A stretch of 21,032 nucleotides of DNA. Source: a virus. Within the stretch, counting starts at the first letter, position 1; each line of letters begins with the position of its first letter. Location of the stretch: positions 1-21,032 of the IMG/VR virus record IMGVR_UViG_3300032156_000090, one strand, 5' to 3'. The notes under the pieces were generated by a model. It made no database searches and was not told the origin of the DNA. It saw only the letters and a list, made by a program, of their open reading frames with translations. Positions 2,415 to 21,032 of the stretch are shown in pieces. The position numbers and the translations under genes are program-made.

Positions 2415-3080
2415 CTATACTAATATTTTGAATGATTTATGAATGTTATCTATCCACCATAAAGGCTGAAGATTTGTATAATGACATAATTTATATAATT
2501 CATCTTCTGTTTTTGCTGAGTCTAACGGTATTCTATGATCAATATGCCATCCAAATTGTCCGTGATTTCCCCAATTCATTCCATCAGTAAATTGTTTTTC
2601 TAAATACTCTTTTAATTCTGGCGGCGATATTCCAACAATGTCGAATGTTTTATTTCTCTTCGTTATATTAAATTTTTTTATATATTTATGTAAACTAGAT
2701 CGCACATTATTTGTGATTTTATAAACTGGATCGTCTTTTTGTCTTTCTTTCTTTCGTTCTCTTTTTCTTGGATTATAATTTTTACGATATTCTTTTCTTT
2801 TTTCTGGATGATTCATTATCCATTCTTTTGTTCGTATTTTATTTTTTTCAATAAATTCTATGTAATTTTTTTTATTACGATCATTAACCCAATCAGGATG
2901 ATTTTGCCTCCATATTCGTTGAGATTCTAAAACTTTATCATAATTCTTTTTGGAGTATTCTTTACTGCGTTTATTATTACATTCCTTACAAAAATAATTT
3001 AATCCATCTTTACTTTTTGATAGCTTTCCAAAATCAGAAAAATTTTTTTCGATTTTACATTTACAACATATTTTTCCCAT
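2415..3080 (-). CDS. HNH endonuclease with N-terminal zinc finger (free-standing homing endonuclease type)
   Basis: With the start at 3080 the protein has 221 residues. It has an N-terminal C-x2-C ... C-x2-C zinc site (C5, C8, C31, C34, around FSDFGKLSKSKDGL). A long, very basic region with repeated NHP/NP segments follows, typical of DNA-contacting parts of phage HNH enzymes. The C-terminal HNH nuclease domain has GWHIDHRIPL (H179, D181, H182), then YTNLQPLW (N203) and DN-HKS (N212). Such genes cut DNA near their own insertion site and spread between phages. A longer start at 3104 overlaps the end of the recombinase gene by 20 nt. I prefer 3080 because the zinc site then begins right after the N-terminus, as is usual in this family. 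It sits directly behind the uvsX-like gene. Confidence 0.85.
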   Translation of the reverse strand: MGKICCKCKIEKNFSDFGKLSKSKDGLNYFCKECNNKRSKEYSKKNYDKVLESQRIWRQNHPDWVNDRNKKNYIEFIEKNKIRTKEWIMNHPEKRKEYRKNYNPRKRERKKERQKDDPVYKITNNVRSSLHKYIKKFNITKRNKTFDIVGISPPELKEYLEKQFTDGMNWGNHGQFGWHIDHRIPLDSAKTEDELYKLCHYTNLQPLWWIDNIHKSFKILV

Positions 3081-3084
3081 TACA

Positions 3085-4104
3085 TCATTCAGAATCTTCC
3101 TCATTTATAATATTTGCGTCTGCTATTTCTGATATAGGAACGCCCAATTTTTCACTAATATAGTCGCCAGCAATTTTTTTATATTCTTCAATGGATTTTT
3201 TCTCTTCAGCCTCATTTTTGGCCCTCATAAAATCATGCGCGGTCACTAATATCTTACCATCTTCATATCCCAATCCATTGACATGATTCTTCATCACGCT
3301 AATTTTAGTCCTCGTTGCAATTTTAACCTTTCTGCCGTCTTTTTGAATTGAAATTTTTGTTATTCCCGCATTTTTCTGATTTCCAAATAAGAAAACCAAA
3401 GTCGAATTCAGCCATATTGCTTCCCCGCCTTTTGCTTTAATCCTTGGTTGTCCCATTGGATTATCTGGAAGTTCAACCCATGGTTGGTTGCAAATAACCA
3501 TCGTATTTGTGTGTTTTTTATCAGATCTTCTTGATCCTGTAATTCTCTGGTTCAAACCCATTCCTATTTTATCTGATAATACTGCTGCGTTGTGCATTTT
3601 ACCGCCACGACCCTCATATGTCATTTTGCATGGAATGGATCCTACGGAATCCCATAAAAAGCACAAATCATAATCTATTTCTCCTTTATCTTGTGCATTA
3701 AGTAAATCCTCAATATAATCCGTGATTTGCTCAATATAATCAAAGTGATTATTAAAAAGAAAAAATCCATCCCACACATTTTCGCCAGTCTTTTCATCTA
3801 TTTTTTGTTCACATAAAAGGCCCATAAGCATTGCATGAAAAAATGTCCATTTTTGCTCTGTTATAAGAAAAACCGGCAATATATTTTTTTTCTGAGCATC
3901 AATTGCTGTTTTAATTAAGGCCCCCGTTTTACCCGTGTCGGTATGTCCCAAAAACATATTTAAATGTCCCATAGCGGGGCCAGGAATGCCACAAGCATCC
4001 AAAAAAGCATCTCCTAAATCAAAAAATCTATCAGGTTTAAATGATGCTTCTTGTGAATATTTTTTCTGTATCACCGAAAAATCCATTTTTTTAATTGTCG
4101 CCAT
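3085..4104 (-). CDS. uvsX: UvsX/RecA-like recombinase
   Basis: A 339-residue RecA-fold ATPase that would form filaments on ssDNA and drive strand invasion. The Walker A motif GHTDTGKT is at residues 53-60, after the strand LNMFL. A glutamate-containing strand follows (VFLITEQKW, 78-86), then a Walker B-like segment YDLCFLWDS (145-153), a loop region (GRGGKMHNAAVLSDK), the strand TMVICNQPW (201-209) and KGGEAIWLNSTLVFLF. This order and length match phage UvsX proteins (T4 UvsX is about 390 residues). The C-terminal tail is acidic (NEEDSE). It lies directly after the ssDNA-binding protein gene with a large hairpin between them. No Shine-Dalgarno sequence precedes the ATG; the leader is A-rich. 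A replicative RecA-like paralogue other than UvsX cannot be excluded. Confidence 0.88.
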   Translation of the reverse strand: MATIKKMDFSVIQKKYSQEASFKPDRFFDLGDAFLDACGIPGPAMGHLNMFLGHTDTGKTGALIKTAIDAQKKNILPVFLITEQKWTFFHAMLMGLLCEQKIDEKTGENVWDGFFLFNNHFDYIEQITDYIEDLLNAQDKGEIDYDLCFLWDSVGSIPCKMTYEGRGGKMHNAAVLSDKIGMGLNQRITGSRRSDKKHTNTMVICNQPWVELPDNPMGQPRIKAKGGEAIWLNSTLVFLFGNQKNAGITKISIQKDGRKVKIATRTKISVMKNHVNGLGYEDGKILVTAHDFMRAKNEAEEKKSIEEYKKIAGDYISEKLGVPISEIADANIINEEDSE

Positions 4105-6124: not shown

Positions 6125-9100
6125 TCATTCTGATAATTTGAAATATACTATTTGACCATCAGTTAATCCCAATTTTGTCATTAATGATTTAGATAATCCA
6201 ATGCCTGCTCCCACAGATGTAGATGGACCAACACTAACAGGTCCCGCATATATATGATTACTATTACTCATTTTTGTAATTACAATTTCAGATCGTGGAA
6301 TTTGGGTATTTGGATTTAAAAATATTGTTCTGGGAAAATGAGTAACAAGAGAATCTGGAGATACTCTTTCTCGATTAAATCTGGTTACATAAAAATCTTG
6401 ATTTTTGCTTAAATTCCTAAGCTCATTCCATATTACCTGTCTAGGAGTATCAATACTTCCAGTTTTCAGATTTGAAATTATAGTCATAGTAATGCCAGAT
6501 TCAATTGGATATTTTGTTCCGTCCATAAGAACGGCAACCGTTCTTAGCCATTTATTGTTTTCATTCTGATATGAAATTAATTGTATGTATTTTTCTCCAT
6601 CAAATCCATTATATGGTATTCCATATTCTGTCACACCCGCTTGATTGACAAGTTTTTCGCCTTTTGGAGCTATATCCTTGGCTCCCATATCATATGAATA
6701 TGATCCTGAATCTGTAATCATTGTATTTTCAGTAGCGGTCTTACCTGATAATTGCATTTGCTCTTCTTTAATTTTAACATCCGCTCTTTTTACTAATTTA
6801 TCAAAAAATGATCGATAACTAGCCAAGAATGAATCTATTGGATTTGGTAATGATTGTAATGGCATTCTCGATCCTTTAAACGTCGTTTCAATACCTGTTG
6901 TACGAATATTATGCGTTACTTCTGTAATCCAATATGAACCTCTAAACATTGGAATGTTTTTTAAATAAAAATACATTGTTGGTTGTATCATAACATCACC
7001 CATGCAAGTCACTTGACATTGATATGATGATTGTCTATATATATCAAATAATCCAATATCGATTTGCGCCGTACTAGATCCCGTTTCACTTCGTCCTAGT
7101 CTTTCTAATACTGGAAATGTTTCTGAAGTGTTTTTTATTGATGATTGATCTAATTCCACCGATTTAAAAATAGACTGATTTTGATCACCAAAGCTTACTT
7201 CAAACGCAACCACTTTATTCGACTTAGAAAGATCCGACTTGGTAAAAACATCGGGGGCCACAATAACTGGATTATTATTGACATCTCCAATGTTAAATCC
7301 GTCATTCTTATATTTGTATTTACTATCAATATCATATAGCTCTAGATGTTTTGAAGTCGGGCCAATATATTGTAATATAATTTTTGGCGAAGAATCCATA
7401 GTGTCAATATCTAAAAACGACCCAAACAGATTTTGAGCAACATTTTTAGATGGAATAATTTTTTTCGTATCTGAAAAATTTGTTCCATAAAAATTAACAT
7501 AGGCTGGCAATGCTCTTATATCAAATCCAGTATCTTGAACCAAAAGACTAATTGCACTAAATAAATTAATTTTTTCATTTCCTTCTGCCGTTAATCTCAT
7601 TAATTTTTCCATATCAATATAAACAGAACTACCAATATCTCGATTTGCTTTATCCAAAAATAAAAACTCTTCCATTAGCGTTCTTTGTCCTATTGAATTC
7701 CCTGATGTCCACTTATCATTAAAAGATTTAAAAAGATTATATAATTCTAATTTAATAATATCATCGCTATATCCTCTTTTTTTCTTTACGCCTTGGGTCT
7801 CTTGTCTTTTTAAATCATTTTGTATTTTATATCCTATTTGGTCTAAAAATATTTTTAATCTGTCATTTGGCCCGCTAACGCCAGTTATATTATTCTTAGT
7901 TGGCGTTACAATTTTCTCTTTTAAATAAGTAATAAATGTATCTTTTGTTGGCGTTTCTCCATCAGCTCTCATTCCAGCATATATGTAAATTAAAGATCTA
8001 AATTGCTTTATATTATCCTCATTAATTTCAATATTATTTACTGAAAAGAAATCAGCATAATATCCATCTAAATCTTCGCCAAGATAAAGCTTCATATTAT
8101 TTATATTGTCAGGATCGGTAAGTTGAAAAGGATCAAATTCATTTACGCTAAAACGCTCTACACCTGTATTGGTAAATCCGCCTAAAACGTAATTATCAAT
8201 TTCTCTAGGATTTGCCAATGAAATCCTTATAAGATTATCAGTTGATAAAATATTACTTGTTATTTCAAGTAATTTACTTGTTTGTCTTTCTCTAACTATT
8301 GTAAATAAACTGTCATTATTTGTGAATGTAACGCCAGTAAGTAAGACTATTGGATCGTTACTGGTTTTTGATACGGAAACTATTTCTTTTAACAAATCTT
8401 GGAATTTTGGGTATTTCACATCATATAGTACATATGGAATTTCTTCATTAAGGCTTTCGCTTGCAAAATTTAAAAATGCCTGTTCAAATATATCCAAAAT
8501 ATCAAATTTAAATGTTGCAATTAAATCAATTACTTTTCTGTAATTTGTTGATAATGAATACGTGTCAGTCGATCCCGTCAATTTAAAATATTCATCGGGC
8601 GATGGAAATGTATATCCACTATAATTCACATAGTTTAATGAATAATCAGTTCCAATGTTCCATAGAATTCTAAAATTTTCTTGTTCTGCACTATCAAAAT
8701 CACTCGCATCAATATCTTTATATCCGTTAGATGGTATTAATGTAAATCTCTGATCTACAGAATCAAATTTTGATTCATCTATAACTGTTGACCATGCCGT
8801 TCCTCCAGGCGCTTCTCGATAAAATGTTTTTATAACACCATTATCTATTGATGCTGAATAATCAACTGGACCCGCTATTTGATCGAAAAATCCGTACCCA
8901 TTAACTATTTGATGAAATACTGTATCATAAAAAGGATGAAATCCCACATCACTAGTGGCGCTTCGATCTATAATTTTAACTGGATTTGTATATCCTGTAT
9001 ATGTTCTACCAGTAAACGAATTATCAAAATATATGTCTCCACTAATCGGAATAGTTACATTACTAATAATATCAATACTATCATTAATATATTTTTTATA

Positions 9101-10960
9101 TCTATGATAAATCGATCCCCATTTTAACATTAAATGATATGGAACATAATGACTTGCTCCAATTTCTCTAAAAAGCGTTGATACTAAAGTATCGGTTTGA
9201 ACTGGCCCTGCATATCCAAAGCTTATTGTATCATCCAGATCTTTAAAAGGTAAAGAATTTAAGAATAAATACGCCGAACCCACATACTTTTCTTGCGGTT
9301 GAAGTTTAGTAAAATCATCATATAATTGTTTATGAAAATATGGGGTATTCAAAATATGCTTATACTGATCTCCTATTTTTATAACATTATTAAATAAATT
9401 AAGTCCATATCCGTCTTTAACCCACATATACGGATTTAATGGCAATGACCCAGATGAAATGAAATCTTCTGGCGCATTAACTTTTAAAAGCCCATTTAAG
9501 CTTAAATTTTTTAATTCAAAACTCCTATAAGACTTATATGTTGACGAATTAAAAGGATATATTATTGTTCTATATTCTTCAGGTTGATAATCCAATAAAA
9601 ATTTTGATAATTTTGTATATAGATCTTCATGCATTGCCCGACTTTCAACATTTTTTTGATATTTTTTTATGCTAAAATCTTGATTTAAAACATCTTTAAT
9701 ATATGGCACCGTTGGTAATTGATCTTGATAATATGTGTATCTTTCAAATTCCGAAAATGCTCCCATATAATAAAGTAAACTTTCATAATTTGTAATATAA
9801 GCTTTTAATATATCTATAATATCAATATCTTCAGCTATTTGAACCTTTAAATTATCATATTCGACATTGGCGAGTTCAATCGTTACATCATTACTAAATG
9901 GATTAAGCGAAGTTACATATTTTGATCTCTCATATATTTCATATAAAATTGAGCTAATTGCTTTATCCCCATATGGTATATATCCCGATACGTTAGTTAA
10001 TACTCCAATATCTTTTTTAGATAGATTAAGATCCGTGGCAAAAATATAATTTATATTTTCTGGACTACCTTCTTTATCTGTTAAATTATCAGCTTTTTTC
10101 GTCGCGACTTCATAAAAATTTTCAACAAAATCAACTTCGGGCCATAATGTCGTATCTCCCGCCTGTAATTTGTCTCCCAATTCCCTACCGCCAGGATATA
10201 CTAAAGCTAATCCGCCAGCAGTTTGAGCTTTAATTTCGGGCCACGGATATATTGAATCCCCAATACTGTCTGTTGACACATTTTTAAGTATTTCTTTTCT
10301 TTTTTTTGCTTGATCGAATGCTTTTAGATGAACATCTTTCATTAATCTTATATATGTTTCCGCATTAGCAAGAAGAACTCCCACAATATTCCTAACTGTT
10401 GGCTCAAATCCTATTCCAATATCTGTTTTTTTGACGATTTCGTTCATTTTTGCTTCAATATCGGATTCCAATTTGTTCCTTTGTTGTACAAAATCTCTTT
10501 CAATAGCGGTAATAACATCAAATATTCCATTAATATCAACGCCAACCTTTCCTTCATCTCTTGTATAAAAATTTGAAATTGTTTTTAATTGATAAAACGA
10601 TATTGTTTTAACCACAAAATTTTTATCGTGAAATAATTCGTTATTTCTTTTTACGCCAAAAGTTTGATTCTCTTCTAAATAATTAATATATTTGGTAATT
10701 AAATACTCAAGAGTACTTGTTATGGTACTTCCCGTAATGGCATCCAATGTGTCTTTAGCTGGGCCTGCCACTTGTATATACCATTCTATATCTTGACTTG
10801 TGCCTGGCCGTTTTGTACCATTTGTAAAAAATTCTCCAGACAAATGTTTTCCTTTCCATGCTTCAATTGTTGTTTGAAAATCTTGAATTTTTTCTTCAAA
10901 ATCTTTTACTCCAGATAAAATTTTTGGATCTACAATTTGTTCAAATATTACTCTTTCCAA
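6125..10960 (-). CDS. Giant baseplate hub-like protein (C-terminal main part of a split reading frame)
   Basis: An open frame of 1611 residues from a TTG at 10960; the frame is open a further 23 codons up to a TAA at 11030-11032 and has no ATG there. Those 23 codons read like normal protein (LPKDFPIRTLREI) and continue the previous ORF, so the true product may be one protein of about 1919 codons. Most of the length is alpha/beta with no motif I recognise. Residues about 1315-1375 (TCMGDVMIQP, YFYLKNIPMFRGSYWITEV, HNIRTTGIETTFKGSR) match the end of the tube-like domain in gp27/gpD-type tail hub proteins. The C-terminal 200 residues are a separate domain ending TDGQIVYFKLSE. T4 gp27 has 391 residues, so this is a very enlarged protein. 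It would sit at the tail tip, under the tube. Confidence 0.8.
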   Translation of the reverse strand: MERVIFEQIVDPKILSGVKDFEEKIQDFQTTIEAWKGKHLSGEFFTNGTKRPGTSQDIEWYIQVAGPAKDTLDAITGSTITSTLEYLITKYINYLEENQTFGVKRNNELFHDKNFVVKTISFYQLKTISNFYTRDEGKVGVDINGIFDVITAIERDFVQQRNKLESDIEAKMNEIVKKTDIGIGFEPTVRNIVGVLLANAETYIRLMKDVHLKAFDQAKKRKEILKNVSTDSIGDSIYPWPEIKAQTAGGLALVYPGGRELGDKLQAGDTTLWPEVDFVENFYEVATKKADNLTDKEGSPENINYIFATDLNLSKKDIGVLTNVSGYIPYGDKAISSILYEIYERSKYVTSLNPFSNDVTIELANVEYDNLKVQIAEDIDIIDILKAYITNYESLLYYMGAFSEFERYTYYQDQLPTVPYIKDVLNQDFSIKKYQKNVESRAMHEDLYTKLSKFLLDYQPEEYRTIIYPFNSSTYKSYRSFELKNLSLNGLLKVNAPEDFISSGSLPLNPYMWVKDGYGLNLFNNVIKIGDQYKHILNTPYFHKQLYDDFTKLQPQEKYVGSAYLFLNSLPFKDLDDTISFGYAGPVQTDTLVSTLFREIGASHYVPYHLMLKWGSIYHRYKKYINDSIDIISNVTIPISGDIYFDNSFTGRTYTGYTNPVKIIDRSATSDVGFHPFYDTVFHQIVNGYGFFDQIAGPVDYSASIDNGVIKTFYREAPGGTAWSTVIDESKFDSVDQRFTLIPSNGYKDIDASDFDSAEQENFRILWNIGTDYSLNYVNYSGYTFPSPDEYFKLTGSTDTYSLSTNYRKVIDLIATFKFDILDIFEQAFLNFASESLNEEIPYVLYDVKYPKFQDLLKEIVSVSKTSNDPIVLLTGVTFTNNDSLFTIVRERQTSKLLEITSNILSTDNLIRISLANPREIDNYVLGGFTNTGVERFSVNEFDPFQLTDPDNINNMKLYLGEDLDGYYADFFSVNNIEINEDNIKQFRSLIYIYAGMRADGETPTKDTFITYLKEKIVTPTKNNITGVSGPNDRLKIFLDQIGYKIQNDLKRQETQGVKKKRGYSDDIIKLELYNLFKSFNDKWTSGNSIGQRTLMEEFLFLDKANRDIGSSVYIDMEKLMRLTAEGNEKINLFSAISLLVQDTGFDIRALPAYVNFYGTNFSDTKKIIPSKNVAQNLFGSFLDIDTMDSSPKIILQYIGPTSKHLELYDIDSKYKYKNDGFNIGDVNNNPVIVAPDVFTKSDLSKSNKVVAFEVSFGDQNQSIFKSVELDQSSIKNTSETFPVLERLGRSETGSSTAQIDIGLFDIYRQSSYQCQVTCMGDVMIQPTMYFYLKNIPMFRGSYWITEVTHNIRTTGIETTFKGSRMPLQSLPNPIDSFLASYRSFFDKLVKRADVKIKEEQMQLSGKTATENTMITDSGSYSYDMGAKDIAPKGEKLVNQAGVTEYGIPYNGFDGEKYIQLISYQNENNKWLRTVAVLMDGTKYPIESGITMTIISNLKTGSIDTPRQVIWNELRNLSKNQDFYVTRFNRERVSPDSLVTHFPRTIFLNPNTQIPRSEIVITKMSNSNHIYAGPVSVGPSTSVGAGIGLSKSLMTKLGLTDGQIVYFKLSE

Positions 10961-11029
10961 TGTTTTATTTAATCTACCAGCAATAATAATAATTTCTCTA
11001 AGCGTTCTTATTGGAAAATCTTTTGGTAA

Positions 11030-11032
11030 TTA
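11030..11032 (-). other. In-frame TAA joining two ORFs of one protein
   Basis: The upstream ORF ends ...GAA TAT ATA AAT AAA GGA TAA, and the same frame goes on TTA CCA AAA GAT TTT CCA without a stop for 1634 codons. No ATG and no Shine-Dalgarno sequence lie near the junction; the first usable start is a TTG 23 codons on. One base change (for example TAA to TTA) would restore a single frame. Possible explanations are a nonsense mutation, a sequence error, read-through or re-initiation. Confidence 0.8.
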
Positions 11033-11884
11033 TCCTTTATTTATATATTCCTGATATACAGATTTTAGCATTCTGTATCCTTTTGTTGATTTACTAACCT
11101 TTACATCATAATACCCTGTTTGTTCATTAAATGTAGTTGTGTTGGTATTTTCCGATATATAAAAATACGGGGCATTTAATGCCGCTTCTAATGGTATATC
11201 AGCTAAATATGCATATGTTGATCCAACAAAAGTCGTCTCAACTTCAAAATTACCATTACTTGGATTATATCTTGAATTAAATTTAGTCATATGCAATCTA
11301 TATTTTACAGCCTTTCCATAATATCCTTTGACTGTTAAATAAAATATAGGCCAAGGTAAATGAAAAAAAGCAGAATACGGAGAATTCGGCGGCGAATCAA
11401 ATAATGTTTTTCCTCTAGCATCAATAAATTTAATTGTTACTCTAGGTATAAAAGTGGCCCCCAATATTTGTATTGATATACTACTAATTCCAAAACTCTG
11501 TCCAGACGGGTCATTTTGAACAAAACTGTTAGCTGTTGGATTAGTACTTGATGAAGTATTTTCAGAACTTGCTGATGATTCTCTAATATCGGTATATGCG
11601 TCTGTCCATTTAGTATCAAAATCAGTACCATTTGGATTTTTCATAAAATTTAATGTGCCTTTAGCAATTGATAATAAAGTATTTTGATCGTTACCAGCAA
11701 CTAAAATAGAACGAGGAACCAGATCGGCCTCCAAATTAACATACATTACAAGATTTTCGGGCTCCACACTTCTTGGCACAGCTAATCCATTAAACACAAC
11801 ACTATTAGGGTCGATATAAATAAGATTATTTTGATCAACTTTAACTAATATGTCATTCGTGGTTTTTAAATTATTATTCCCCAT
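11030..11884 (-). CDS. Baseplate protein, N-terminal part of the giant hub-like protein
   Basis: A 284-residue ORF with an ATG start that overlaps the upstream gene by 11 nt. Residues about 1-60 form a strand-rich domain (ILVKVDQNNLIYIDPNSVV). A Ser/Asn/Thr-rich linker follows (residues about 103-120), then a conserved-looking tail domain: SISIQILGATFIPRVTIKFID, DSPPNSPYSAFFHLPWPIF, LTVKGYYGKAVKYRLHM. It ends in helix KGYRMLKSVYQEYINKG and a TAA, after which the frame continues. The part before the stop is not a complete fold by its look, because the final helix runs into the next ORF. The position after the gp53-like gene and before the hub domain fits a baseplate role. Confidence 0.75.
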   Translation of the reverse strand: MGNNNLKTTNDILVKVDQNNLIYIDPNSVVFNGLAVPRSVEPENLVMYVNLEADLVPRSILVAGNDQNTLLSIAKGTLNFMKNPNGTDFDTKWTDAYTDIRESSASSENTSSSTNPTANSFVQNDPSGQSFGISSISIQILGATFIPRVTIKFIDARGKTLFDSPPNSPYSAFFHLPWPIFYLTVKGYYGKAVKYRLHMTKFNSRYNPSNGNFEVETTFVGSTYAYLADIPLEAALNAPYFYISENTNTTTFNEQTGYYDVKVSKSTKGYRMLKSVYQEYINKG

Positions 11885-17021: not shown

Positions 17022-18992
17022 TTATTCACCTTCTCCGAATTGACCTCCAGGATTTCGTCCTGTAAATTGATCAGGATGATCTAATATTTCTTTCATATTT
17101 AACATTCTGGTTATAGGATCCATAATCACGTCGCCAGATTTATGAACAACTGTTACATAGCTTCTTGTTATTTTTTCAGGTGTTTCTTTTGTTAATTCCA
17201 TTTTCTCTCTTAAAAGATATTCTGGAACTGGCGCAGATGCGATCTCTCCCCCCTTTATGGTTCCTTTTGTCATAGCTCCCGATATACCTTCTTTACGACT
17301 CTGATCAATGGCTTCTGGTTTTATTTTTGCTCCTGACATGCCTTTTTCATGCATCCAGTCAACAACTGATGTTTGAAGTTCTCCCATCTTTCCTCCCATA
17401 ATATCCCTTATTTTTGCGCTTTCTTCAATAATTTTTGTCTTATCAATACCAACAAATTCTTCTAATGCCTCACCCATTACCTGTCCAATTCCAACCCTAA
17501 GAGTTGCTCGAATAAAAGAAACATCCCTGTCAATATTCTGTAGAATACTAACTTGTTGTCTTGCATATTGTTCGGTTGTCATTTTCTCAAAAGCTTTTCT
17601 TTGTTCCAATAATGTTTTTGCCTGTTCATCTGTCATCGATTCTAACGCAATTGCTGTATTATCAGCAGAAACCCCCATTTGTTTTCGCAAATCTGGCGGA
17701 ACTTCAATAACCATTTTACCCCCCTTCATTTGAGCTAGGTTTGTTAAAAATTCTCTATCTTTATCATCAATAATAAGACCTGTTGACAATAAATCAGTGG
17801 CGGCTCTTGATCTTTCCATTGCTGCAACGGCAGTGGTTGTTAGTTCTTGCATACTCATACCGAACTGGTCGGCCATTTCTTTAGCTCGTCTAAGATTAAC
17901 TCCCGTTACTTCAAATCGTCCTTGTTCTTTATTAAATGTAACCAATGTTTTTGATGCATTAATTAATGCATCCTGTAATCCTTCAACATTATTGGTTGCC
18001 ATATACATTAATTTAAGAGGATCATTTAAATCGCCATACGCCCCGCCTAAAACCTGTAAATTTGCAACAAGTTCCAATGCTTTATCTGGATCCCACACTT
18101 TATCTGCAAATGTAAATGCGTCGCTCATATTCATTCTGAATTCAACAGATTTTCGAGTCATAGCACCTAATCCTTCTATACCATTTTTAAATCCATAGGA
18201 GTTTATTCTATTTAAATTTTCGTCTATTAATTTTGTTGACATTTTAGCGTTTAGTCCGACTTCTAATGCGCTATGCCCCGCTTTATCAATTATTCTTGAC
18301 ATATCTCTAACACCCACCCCAACAGCCTCAAAATCTTTTCCCATTTTACTGAATGCAATCATATCTTCAGTAAAAACGCTAGCAAGCTCCATTTCTTCAA
18401 TTGTTTCCCTGCTAAGTAATTTAAATTTTCCTGATTCTCCAACTAATCCACTAACAGATTCTCTTAATTCCTGAAAACTAATACCAATTTTTTCCGCTGC
18501 AGGAGATGCAGCCATAATTTCTTCTCGAAATTCTTTAGATAATTTACCTACTATTCCTGTATTCTTACTAATATCATTTAAAAGATCATTCTGTTGTTGT
18601 AAGTGTAATTCAATCTCATCTTTAAAGAGACCTCCCATCTCTTTAATCATACCTTTCCATCCCCTGAATTTTCCTGCGGGATCAAAAAATATACCTAACC
18701 CTTTTTGTATACTTTTAAATTCTCCAGCTTCTCCAGCTTCTGGCCTAATCTGGGTGCTTATTAACCTATCAACAAATCCCGATCCTCTAGTTGACGCCCC
18801 GTATTTACTTCCGCTTGCTATATCTTCTCCTATTTTACCTGTTTTTGATCTAAGAGAATTATACATTGATACCGCATTTTTTGATTCACTATTAAATAAA
18901 TCAGTATTATTTCGGTCAACGCCAGTTAAGTATTCTTCTAAGAAAGGCCCAAGTTCACCTTTTGATAATCCGCTTAGTTTACTTATATTCAT
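17022..18992 (-). CDS. Tail tape-measure protein
   Basis: A 656-residue, almost wholly helical protein rich in Ala, Glu, Lys, Leu and Met, lying between the tail assembly chaperone and the baseplate genes, the standard place for the tape measure. Long amphipathic stretches are visible (EIELHLQQQNDLLNDISKN, SFQELRESVSGLV, MTDEQAKTLLEQRKAFEKM). Gly/Ala-rich patches occur (VGVGVRDMSRI, ALEVGLNAK). At about 0.15 nm per residue of helix it would set a tail of roughly 100 nm, like that of T4 (gp29, 590 residues). No lysozyme or peptidase motif is seen. The C-terminus is Gly-rich (RNPGGQFGEGE). The ATG has no Shine-Dalgarno sequence and lies 14 nt after the second-frame extension of the chaperone. 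Confidence 0.75.
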   Translation of the reverse strand: MNISKLSGLSKGELGPFLEEYLTGVDRNNTDLFNSESKNAVSMYNSLRSKTGKIGEDIASGSKYGASTRGSGFVDRLISTQIRPEAGEAGEFKSIQKGLGIFFDPAGKFRGWKGMIKEMGGLFKDEIELHLQQQNDLLNDISKNTGIVGKLSKEFREEIMAASPAAEKIGISFQELRESVSGLVGESGKFKLLSRETIEEMELASVFTEDMIAFSKMGKDFEAVGVGVRDMSRIIDKAGHSALEVGLNAKMSTKLIDENLNRINSYGFKNGIEGLGAMTRKSVEFRMNMSDAFTFADKVWDPDKALELVANLQVLGGAYGDLNDPLKLMYMATNNVEGLQDALINASKTLVTFNKEQGRFEVTGVNLRRAKEMADQFGMSMQELTTTAVAAMERSRAATDLLSTGLIIDDKDREFLTNLAQMKGGKMVIEVPPDLRKQMGVSADNTAIALESMTDEQAKTLLEQRKAFEKMTTEQYARQQVSILQNIDRDVSFIRATLRVGIGQVMGEALEEFVGIDKTKIIEESAKIRDIMGGKMGELQTSVVDWMHEKGMSGAKIKPEAIDQSRKEGISGAMTKGTIKGGEIASAPVPEYLLREKMELTKETPEKITRSYVTVVHKSGDVIMDPITRMLNMKEILDHPDQFTGRNPGGQFGEGE

Positions 18993-19138: not shown

Positions 19139-19889
19139 ATAATCCGTAGAAAGGACGAAAAAATTCCGCCCCAAATCCAATTTCAACTTGGATATTTTCC
19201 TTTGAGGGGGTAGTTACTGTCTGAGTTAAATCTAATCCAGGTTTATTTTCAATAGCATATTTTCTAAGATCTTTTGAATCTGTTATTGGCATTTTATTTT
19301 CAATAAAACTATGTATTTCCATCGGATTTCTATTTCCATTAATAGATTGTATCATCATTTCAAGTCTTTTTGATATAATAGGAGCTATTCCTTGTCCGTT
19401 CCAACTATCTCTTATTTTATCAATTTCTGTTTCTTGTTTCTGTGTTAAATATTTAAATGTAATATTAATGCCAGATTTTTTTAAAAAAAATGGATATTCA
19501 CCATTTGTGTCCGCAACCAAAGTAAAATCTTTCATTTTTAATACTGATAAATCCAAAACCACATCAAAAGGCTGCTTTGTTTTTGGATCGGTTACTGTCA
19601 TATTATATTCAGATCCAAATGCAGTATTCCTCAAAAATATTAATATTGCTTGTCTATCCTCATCAACAATATCGTCAAGCTCTAAGTCTTTATCTAATAT
19701 TTTTCTTTTCAACAATTCATCAATAACGCCGCCCGACGCAATCAAATTTACTGATGATAATATATTTTCATCTGCTGCAGTTAAATAAGCCACCCTAACT
19801 GATTTTTTCTTATTTGCATAATGTATTCCCCTGCTTGGTAATTCAACAACATCATATGCTATTGAAGGGTCGATTCTAAATTCATCCAT
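19137..19889 (-). CDS. Tail assembly chaperone (gp26-like, T4 baseplate family)
   Basis: A 250-residue protein with the N-terminal signature of the T4 gp26/baseplate-hub assembly family: VELPSRGIHY (residues 15-24), then KSVRVAYLTAADENILSS (29-46), ASGGVIDELLKRKI and a domain with FLRNTAFGSEYNMTV and LDLSVLKMKDF. The end carries GFGAEFFRPFYGL. Such proteins keep the tape measure soluble while the tube assembles around it. The gene lies between the tube and tape-measure genes, the place of the lambda G/GT genes. Near the end are runs that could allow slipping: GGGGC (plus 19168-19172) and UUUUUU followed by C (plus 19157-19163), where a tRNA-Phe could move +1 from UUU to UUC. The downstream second frame at 19007-19138 fits such a shift. 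Confidence 0.75.
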   Translation of the reverse strand: MDEFRIDPSIAYDVVELPSRGIHYANKKKSVRVAYLTAADENILSSVNLIASGGVIDELLKRKILDKDLELDDIVDEDRQAILIFLRNTAFGSEYNMTVTDPKTKQPFDVVLDLSVLKMKDFTLVADTNGEYPFFLKKSGINITFKYLTQKQETEIDKIRDSWNGQGIAPIISKRLEMMIQSINGNRNPMEIHSFIENKMPITDSKDLRKYAIENKPGLDLTQTVTTPSKENIQVEIGFGAEFFRPFYGL

Positions 19890-19919
19890 ATCATATCTTT
19901 AATTAATAATTATTGCATA

Positions 19920-19955
19920 AAAAATTCTCATATACCGTAATATACGAGAATTTTT
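19920..19955 (-). terminator. Strong intrinsic terminator after the tail tube gene
   Basis: The minus-strand transcript forms a 16-bp stem (arms beginning AAAAAUUCUC and ending GAGAAUUUUU) with two G-U wobble pairs and a UACG loop, followed by a U-tract. The loop belongs to the UNCG class. On the plus strand the wobbles become mismatches, so the direction is minus. It lies 25 nt after the tube gene stop. It probably limits read-through from the highly expressed tube gene into the chaperone gene; the rest of the 91-nt gap 19890-19980 shows no clear promoter. Confidence 0.8.
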
Positions 19956-19980
19956 CCACAATATCAATAGATAATATTTA

Positions 19981-20469
19981 TCAATATACTTGAATGCAAC
20001 GATCCATACGAAGAGATGCGTTGATGTCCGCTAATTTATCGTCAGTATAATCCAGTGTTCCAAAGTCAAGACTTGTTAAAAATGTACCTTGAAGTATCCA
20101 TTTTTCAACTACAACCCCAGTTGGGTCGAGCATTTCTAACTCAACATCTTTCTTGTATCCTGCAGCATATCCCATTCTACCTGTAACTGATTCTGCGTGT
20201 AAACGGAACCATTCCATAAGTGCTTGTGAGGCTGATGGCCCAATCGGATCTTTAAAGGTCACTTTAAGTTCTTCCCAGTTAAACCTACCAGCAACATATG
20301 TTTGTGTATTAAGAAATGGTATTTCAACCGAATTTATTTTTGCATTTGGCCTGGCTGCGGATGTAACATACCATTCATTTATTCCAAGACTCGAAGGAAA
20401 TCTTAGTATAAATCTATTTTTTCTTTTCGGTTCATAAGGAACCGGCATTTTCATTAGTAAATCTGCCAT
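19981..20469 (-). CDS. Tail tube protein (T4 gp19-like)
   Basis: A 162-residue protein matching the T4 gp19 family in length (T4 gp19 has 163 residues) and layout. It has a basic N-terminus (PYEPKRKNRFILRFPS), then the tube signature region with SAARPNAKINSVEIPFLNTQTYVAGRFNWEELKV, then DPIGPSASQALMEWFRLH, the strand KKDVELEMLDPTG and ending SLRMDRCIQVY. Stacked hexamers of it form the inner tube for DNA transfer. A strong terminator follows the gene, as usual for such an abundant product. The start is an ATG with A-rich leader (ACGAAAAT) and no Shine-Dalgarno sequence. It lies only 31 nt from a plus-strand gene that faces away from it, while in T4 the sheath gene lies upstream; that gene may be beyond the right edge. 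Confidence 0.9.
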   Translation of the reverse strand: MADLLMKMPVPYEPKRKNRFILRFPSSLGINEWYVTSAARPNAKINSVEIPFLNTQTYVAGRFNWEELKVTFKDPIGPSASQALMEWFRLHAESVTGRMGYAAGYKKDVELEMLDPTGVVVEKWILQGTFLTSLDFGTLDYTDDKLADINASLRMDRCIQVY

Positions 20470-20500: not shown

Positions 20501-21032
20501 ATGACTATGGAAAAAAATAAAAAAGAATTAAAAATTTTTTTATCGGAGAATAATAAAAGTGGATATAAAACAAAAAAAAATTATATTAATACCAATTTTC
20601 CAAAATTTTCTTCAAGTTTAAAATCTTATATTAAAAGATATAAATTAGAAAATATTCAATTTAAAGAACAATTATTTTTATTTTTGAATGATCTTAATGA
20701 TATTCCAATATGTTTAACTTGTGGCGAAAAATTAAAATTTAAAAGATCGATTAAAGAAGGATATGGTACTTATTGTTCAATTAAATGTACAAATAAATCT
20801 GAAAAACATATTAATAACGTAAAATCAACTAACATTAAAAGGTATGGCGGCGTTGCTCCGTGTAGTTCTTCTGATGTAATGAAAAAAATGTCAGATACAA
20901 ATTTTAAAAATTATGGCGTGCATAATTTTTTTGAAAAAAAGGATATTATTCAAAAAAAAATATTTGAAAAATATGGAAATTCAATTATGACAAAAACTGA
21001 TCATTATAAAAAAATAATGAAAGAAAATTATG
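20501..21032 (+). CDS. Zinc-ribbon homing-endonuclease-like protein, N-terminal part, cut by window edge
   Basis: The only plus-strand gene, with an ATG at 20501 (a second ATG at 20507) and 177 codons to the right edge. It is very Lys/Asn/Ile/Phe-rich, more A-rich than its neighbours. The N-terminal 65 residues are basic and helical. A zinc site C71-x2-C74 and C92-x3-C96 (ICLTCGEK, YCSIKC) is followed by repeated units with a YG motif: STNIKRYGGVAP, DTNFKNYGVHNF and IFEKYGNS. This plan is seen in putative phage homing endonucleases whose nuclease domain lies further downstream, which is not in the window. Being opposite in direction to the tail genes and close to the tube gene fits a mobile insert. 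The exact nuclease class is unknown. Confidence 0.7.
   Translation, partial: MTMEKNKKELKIFLSENNKSGYKTKKNYINTNFPKFSSSLKSYIKRYKLENIQFKEQLFLFLNDLNDIPICLTCGEKLKFKRSIKEGYGTYCSIKCTNKSEKHINNVKSTNIKRYGGVAPCSSSDVMKKMSDTNFKNYGVHNFFEKKDIIQKKIFEKYGNSIMTKTDHYKKIMKENY

Follow-up and report, generated by a model that had tools for sequence, protein, structure and literature searches.

The stretch of viral DNA analyzed here (the window; IMG/VR record IMGVR_UViG_3300032156_000090, positions 1–21,032, 21,032 nucleotides) raises the question of why a very long reading frame is interrupted by one stop codon. On the minus strand, an ATG at 11884 opens a frame that is interrupted by a TAA at 11032–11030 and then stays open up to a TGA at 6125, giving 1,920 codons when both stops are counted. 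As an earlier note on this DNA had described, the 284-residue ORF (11884–11030, from ATG to TAA) lies in the same frame as the ORF at 6125–10960, and the two are separated by the TAA and 23 sense codons (11029–10961) without an ATG. The first NTG start codon past the stop is a TTG at 10960. The features that are discussed are as follows:

11033..11884, minus strand: N-terminal 284 codons of the giant hub-like gene, with a weak tail-tube/baseplate-hub fold
11030..11032, minus strand: private in-frame TAA, a sense codon in 80/80 relatives
10961..11029, minus strand: 23 sense codons after the stop, aligning to relatives and predicted to form a loop and then the second helix of a helical hairpin
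6125..11029, minus strand: remainder of the gene, 1,634 codons plus TGA, where purifying selection is the same as that acting on intact relatives
10958..10960, minus strand: first in-frame NTG past the stop, TTG; Leu in 33/33 relatives, TTG in 6 only, not a conserved start

Our overall verdict is that the stop almost certainly reflects a one-base assembly error or else a mutation of very recent date, and not a novel way to make two proteins. For the complete reading, a private single-base change at 11032–11030 in one ordinary gene that arose by error or very recent mutation, we estimate a probability of roughly 0.87. Relatives carry one uninterrupted gene and all encode an amino acid at the site, and past the stop the window copy shows no decay. 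In the window, the gene would then comprise approximately 1,919 sense codons and encode one giant, putatively baseplate-hub-like protein of an uncultured T4-like (contractile-tailed) lineage.

A search of IMG/VR with the N-terminal 284 residues returned 191 encoding stretches, and 80 loci were kept. At the position of the TAA, most of these 80 have TTA, the codon that the earlier note had guessed, and the others have other Leu codons or codons for Tyr, Phe, Ile, Arg, Lys, or Asn. The 33 non-redundant copies encode Leu (28), Tyr (2), Phe (2), or Ile (1) at this position; TTA accounts for 23, with Leu, Tyr, Phe, or Ile codons in the rest. A stop within the locus is reached by 63 copies, of which 62 consist of a single ORF of 1,880–2,003 codons, and the 63rd (L035) has a frameshift that is absent from four sister contigs. 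The possibility of a broken or erroneous copy, raised in the earlier note, is strongly supported by these data, and the arrangement that the note had set against it, two separate genes in relatives, was not seen.

Pattern scans of IMG/VR, which may not cover the window's own record or very near ones, detected a Leu or Phe codon at the site in 104 stretches and a stop in 0, and a tighter pattern gave 6 and 0, respectively. The nearest relatives are only ~79% identical to the window in DNA, so that the TAA could also be present in further members of the species. A tblastn sweep of 184 loci, covering 281,741 aligned and partly redundant codons, revealed no other in-frame stop in the hub-like gene; the window's own stop is detected by this method. 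Compared with L003 (IMGVR_UViG_3300036761_000480), the amino acid identity is 84.8% for the part upstream of the stop and 73.0% for the part downstream, the latter being in frame throughout. A contig chimaera at the stop could be dismissed, since L002/L003 is the closest relative both before and after it. The 23 codons past the TAA encode LPKDFPIRTLREIIIIAGRLNKT, which aligns without gaps to the nearest relatives; these codons are therefore coding sequence, as had been proposed because they read like normal protein.

Selection was analyzed with a five-taxon codon model, in which omega on the window branch was compared with the background by a likelihood test. For the part downstream of the stop, omega was 0.109 on the window branch and 0.102 in the background (p = 0.73), and omega = 1 was rejected (2 delta lnL = 92). 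The upstream part gave values of 0.075 and 0.074, and a control, the adjoining gene for a protein of 1,592 residues, behaved in the same manner (0.097 vs 0.093). A neutral period since the stop arose, if any, would amount to at most ~3% of the window branch; in the profile of the neutral fraction, the log-likelihood was 1.4 under the best value at 2% and 3.4 under it at 4%. A crude parsimony count had hinted at an excess of nonsynonymous change on the window branch, which the likelihood model does not show. The 1,634 downstream codons contain no further stop or frameshift, and no in-frame stop or frameshift was found in the other genes of the window upon comparison with a 61-kb relative. The window copy breaks only one of 254 otherwise invariant columns, by a conservative Leu-to-Ile change, and other copies break 0–7, which argues against a local cluster of errors.

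These results bear on the idea that the window comes from a phage remnant or prophage undergoing decay, in which the gene has long been a pseudogene. Such a pseudogene would contain an in-frame stop, as is seen here, but relaxed selection past the lesion, expected if the pseudogene were long-standing, is not observed: the two omega values hardly differ, the neutral fraction is below ~3% of the branch, and neither the downstream codons nor the other window genes are broken. We consider this explanation very improbable. A private stop combined with full purifying selection instead indicates that the stop is erroneous or arose by mutation only very recently.

Concerning these two causes, we infer that the stop is erroneous and not a real mutation, because a genome encoding a truncated form of an essential tail protein should not remain the majority for long; a wrong base in the consensus or assembly of the metagenome contig is the most likely cause, with odds somewhat better than even. 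In favor of an error, contig-private lesions that are absent from sister contigs occur in the same set. Among contigs of one phage, L035 shows frame changes in the hub-like gene and also in the gene for the 1,586-residue protein, L036 has a stop in the latter gene, and L037–L039 have none of these lesions. The private lesions of L035 and L036 provide a yardstick for contig errors. Against an error, the site is in the middle of the contig and not at a low-coverage end, and elsewhere in the window nothing suggests poor quality. That the sampled virus truly carries a nonsense mutation of very recent date is less likely, though a reasonable second candidate; if real, this mutation would leave a protein of only 284 residues, which would probably be inactive.

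The earlier note had also suggested that read-through or re-initiation yields a short and a long form of the protein. The signals that were looked for around the stop lend no support to conserved read-through, re-initiation, or bypassing. One version holds that the stop is real, fixed, and tolerated, and that a few ribosomes read through it by means of an ochre suppressor tRNA or near-cognate decoding, producing 31-kDa and ~215-kDa forms. Undiminished purifying selection downstream is what one would expect if the long product were still made, but a very recent origin of the stop accounts for this result equally well. Phages with an alternative code do translate stop codons within structural genes, using suppressor tRNAs (PMC9523058). 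In the present case, neither the 21-kb window nor the examined stretches of relatives yielded a tRNA gene, and an ochre suppressor would hit the 8 of the 14 listed window genes that end in TAA. All three stop codons, TAA, TAG, and TGA, are used as terminators in the window and only one in-frame TAA occurs in a conserved gene, which does not fit an alternative code; the note's rejection of a general reassignment of TAA thus stands. A stop kept at the same place, as conserved read-through would entail, occurs in no relative. Nor is there a stimulatory structure, the 106 nt from the stop onward folding no better than shuffled sequences (z = +1.3). A TAA followed by T is, moreover, regarded as a strong termination context. 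Read-through of a fixed stop is, in our view, unlikely. Even less likely is a very recent, lineage-specific stoichiometry switch, in which a TAA that is real, fixed in the species, and partly read through would give a short N-terminal hub fragment plus rare full-length hub.

Re-initiation would imply that the gene is split in two, with the product of 284 residues assembling together with another one whose translation begins at TTG 10960. This TTG is located 23 codons past the stop, in a phage without clear Shine–Dalgarno sequences. The earlier note was right that no Shine–Dalgarno sequence precedes the TTG, but a clear one was found for none of the window's annotated genes, and its absence is therefore uninformative. 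The TTG is not a conserved start: the six relatives (of 33) with TTG at that place have an uninterrupted frame, so that it is an ordinary Leu codon. A restart at the TTG would lose the conserved LPKDFPxRTLRE segment and cut the helical hairpin, and none of the relatives is split at the site. A split gene seems about as improbable as a stoichiometry switch. Scans for a terminator or promoter at the stop gave nothing above chance; one terminator-like hairpin was noted ~140 nt upstream of the stop, inside coding sequence.

Programmed bypassing, as known from T4 gene 60, was considered because the codon before the stop is GGA, and bypassing in gene 60 uses a GGA take-off codon followed by a stop (PMC5009743). 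However, most intact relatives also have GGA or GGT directly before the site, where it is plain Gly. No in-frame GGA landing codon exists close past the stop, the nearest GGA (in TTGGAA) being out of frame, and no stem-loop follows the stop. The segment to be skipped is conserved protein in all relatives and not a non-coding gap. We regard bypassing as the least probable of the explanations discussed.

As to what the gene encodes, we infer that the giant protein is probably baseplate-hub-like and belongs to an uncultured T4-like lineage, the indications being suggestive only. The protein has no credible Pfam or PHROG match. Its first 222 residues gave weak Foldseek and VIA-align matches to tail-tube, hub, and baseplate folds (best E 0.01, Z 5–6), and it is in the part with these tube-like and hub fold matches that pLDDT is low. 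AlphaFold models of residues 1–700 and of the last 651 residues of L003 were partly confident, with mean pLDDT values of 65 and 57, respectively. The stop site corresponds to residue 283 in L003 numbering, which is predicted to lie in a loop between helices 266–281 and 293–314; the model thus does not place the stop inside one continuous helix, which corrects the earlier note on this detail, where the last helix before the TAA and the residues past it look like one continuous segment. According to the model, a 284-residue product would lack everything past that loop. Sequence matches in the PDB to pentatricopeptide-repeat (PPR) proteins at 273–335 were attributed to a helical hairpin and not to homology. 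The last ~200 residues (L003:11100–11703) form a confidently predicted C-terminal domain with weak likeness to double-psi beta-barrels (loosenin, p97 N-domain, 4avr), where the domain that matched was deduced from the confident part of the model.

The neighboring genes encode a gp53-like baseplate wedge protein, a T4 baseplate/hub-assembly-like protein, a gp19-like tube protein, and a UvsX-like recombinase. An Endonuclease VII/HNH-like gene (2415–3104) overlaps the end of the UvsX-like recombinase gene, and its position is kept in G001 (L091). Between the hub-assembly-like and tube genes, where G001 has a 295-residue homing-endonuclease-like gene, the window has 91 bp only (19889–19981). On the opposite strand, a gene at 20501–21031 (+) is cut by the contig end; in G001, its counterpart has 520 residues and matches families of homing/HNH endonucleases (phrog_3339, E 9e-105). 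The presumed tape-measure protein (17022–18992) has 656 residues compared with 791 in G001; residues 59–543 align well, and the C-terminal part is strongly diverged.

Window positions 6125–11884 together with loci L001–L080 make up a family of hub-like baseplate proteins of ~1,900 residues in uncultured T4-like phages. Using the N-terminal part plus a relative's C-terminal part as queries, tblastn found no match in 50,697 phage records, and no confirmed relative of the giant protein was found in GTDB genomes. An intact family of such proteins without a detectable relative in these phage records is the more lasting observation of this study. As for the stop, an apparent recoding signal in a metagenome contig was resolved through a comparison of orthologues together with a codon test of the window branch; if the stop were real and fixed, an essential tail protein would be made by ochre read-through, which is rare.

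Several known systems resemble this locus in part. In crAss-like phages using genetic code 15, in-frame stops likewise occur inside phage structural genes (PMC9523058), but there TAG is found in many genes and is accompanied by suppressor tRNAs, whereas the window has a single such TAA and all three stops terminate. T4 gene 60 shares the GGA followed by a stop codon and differs in that the window has no in-frame landing codon, no structure, and no non-coding gap. The Mu gp44 and T4 gp27 hubs are likewise encoded in a baseplate gene cluster, and hub, baseplate, and tail-tube folds weakly match residues ~1–222 of the giant protein; these hubs have ~380 residues, compared with ~1,900 here, and there is no sequence-family match. 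The closest counterparts are the intact orthologues in uncultured T4-like contigs such as L003, which have the same gene with the same neighbors (the gp53-like gene and those for the 1,586-residue protein, the hub-assembly-like protein, and the tube). The difference is that the gene in L003 is an uninterrupted ORF of 1,901 codons with a sense codon at the site.
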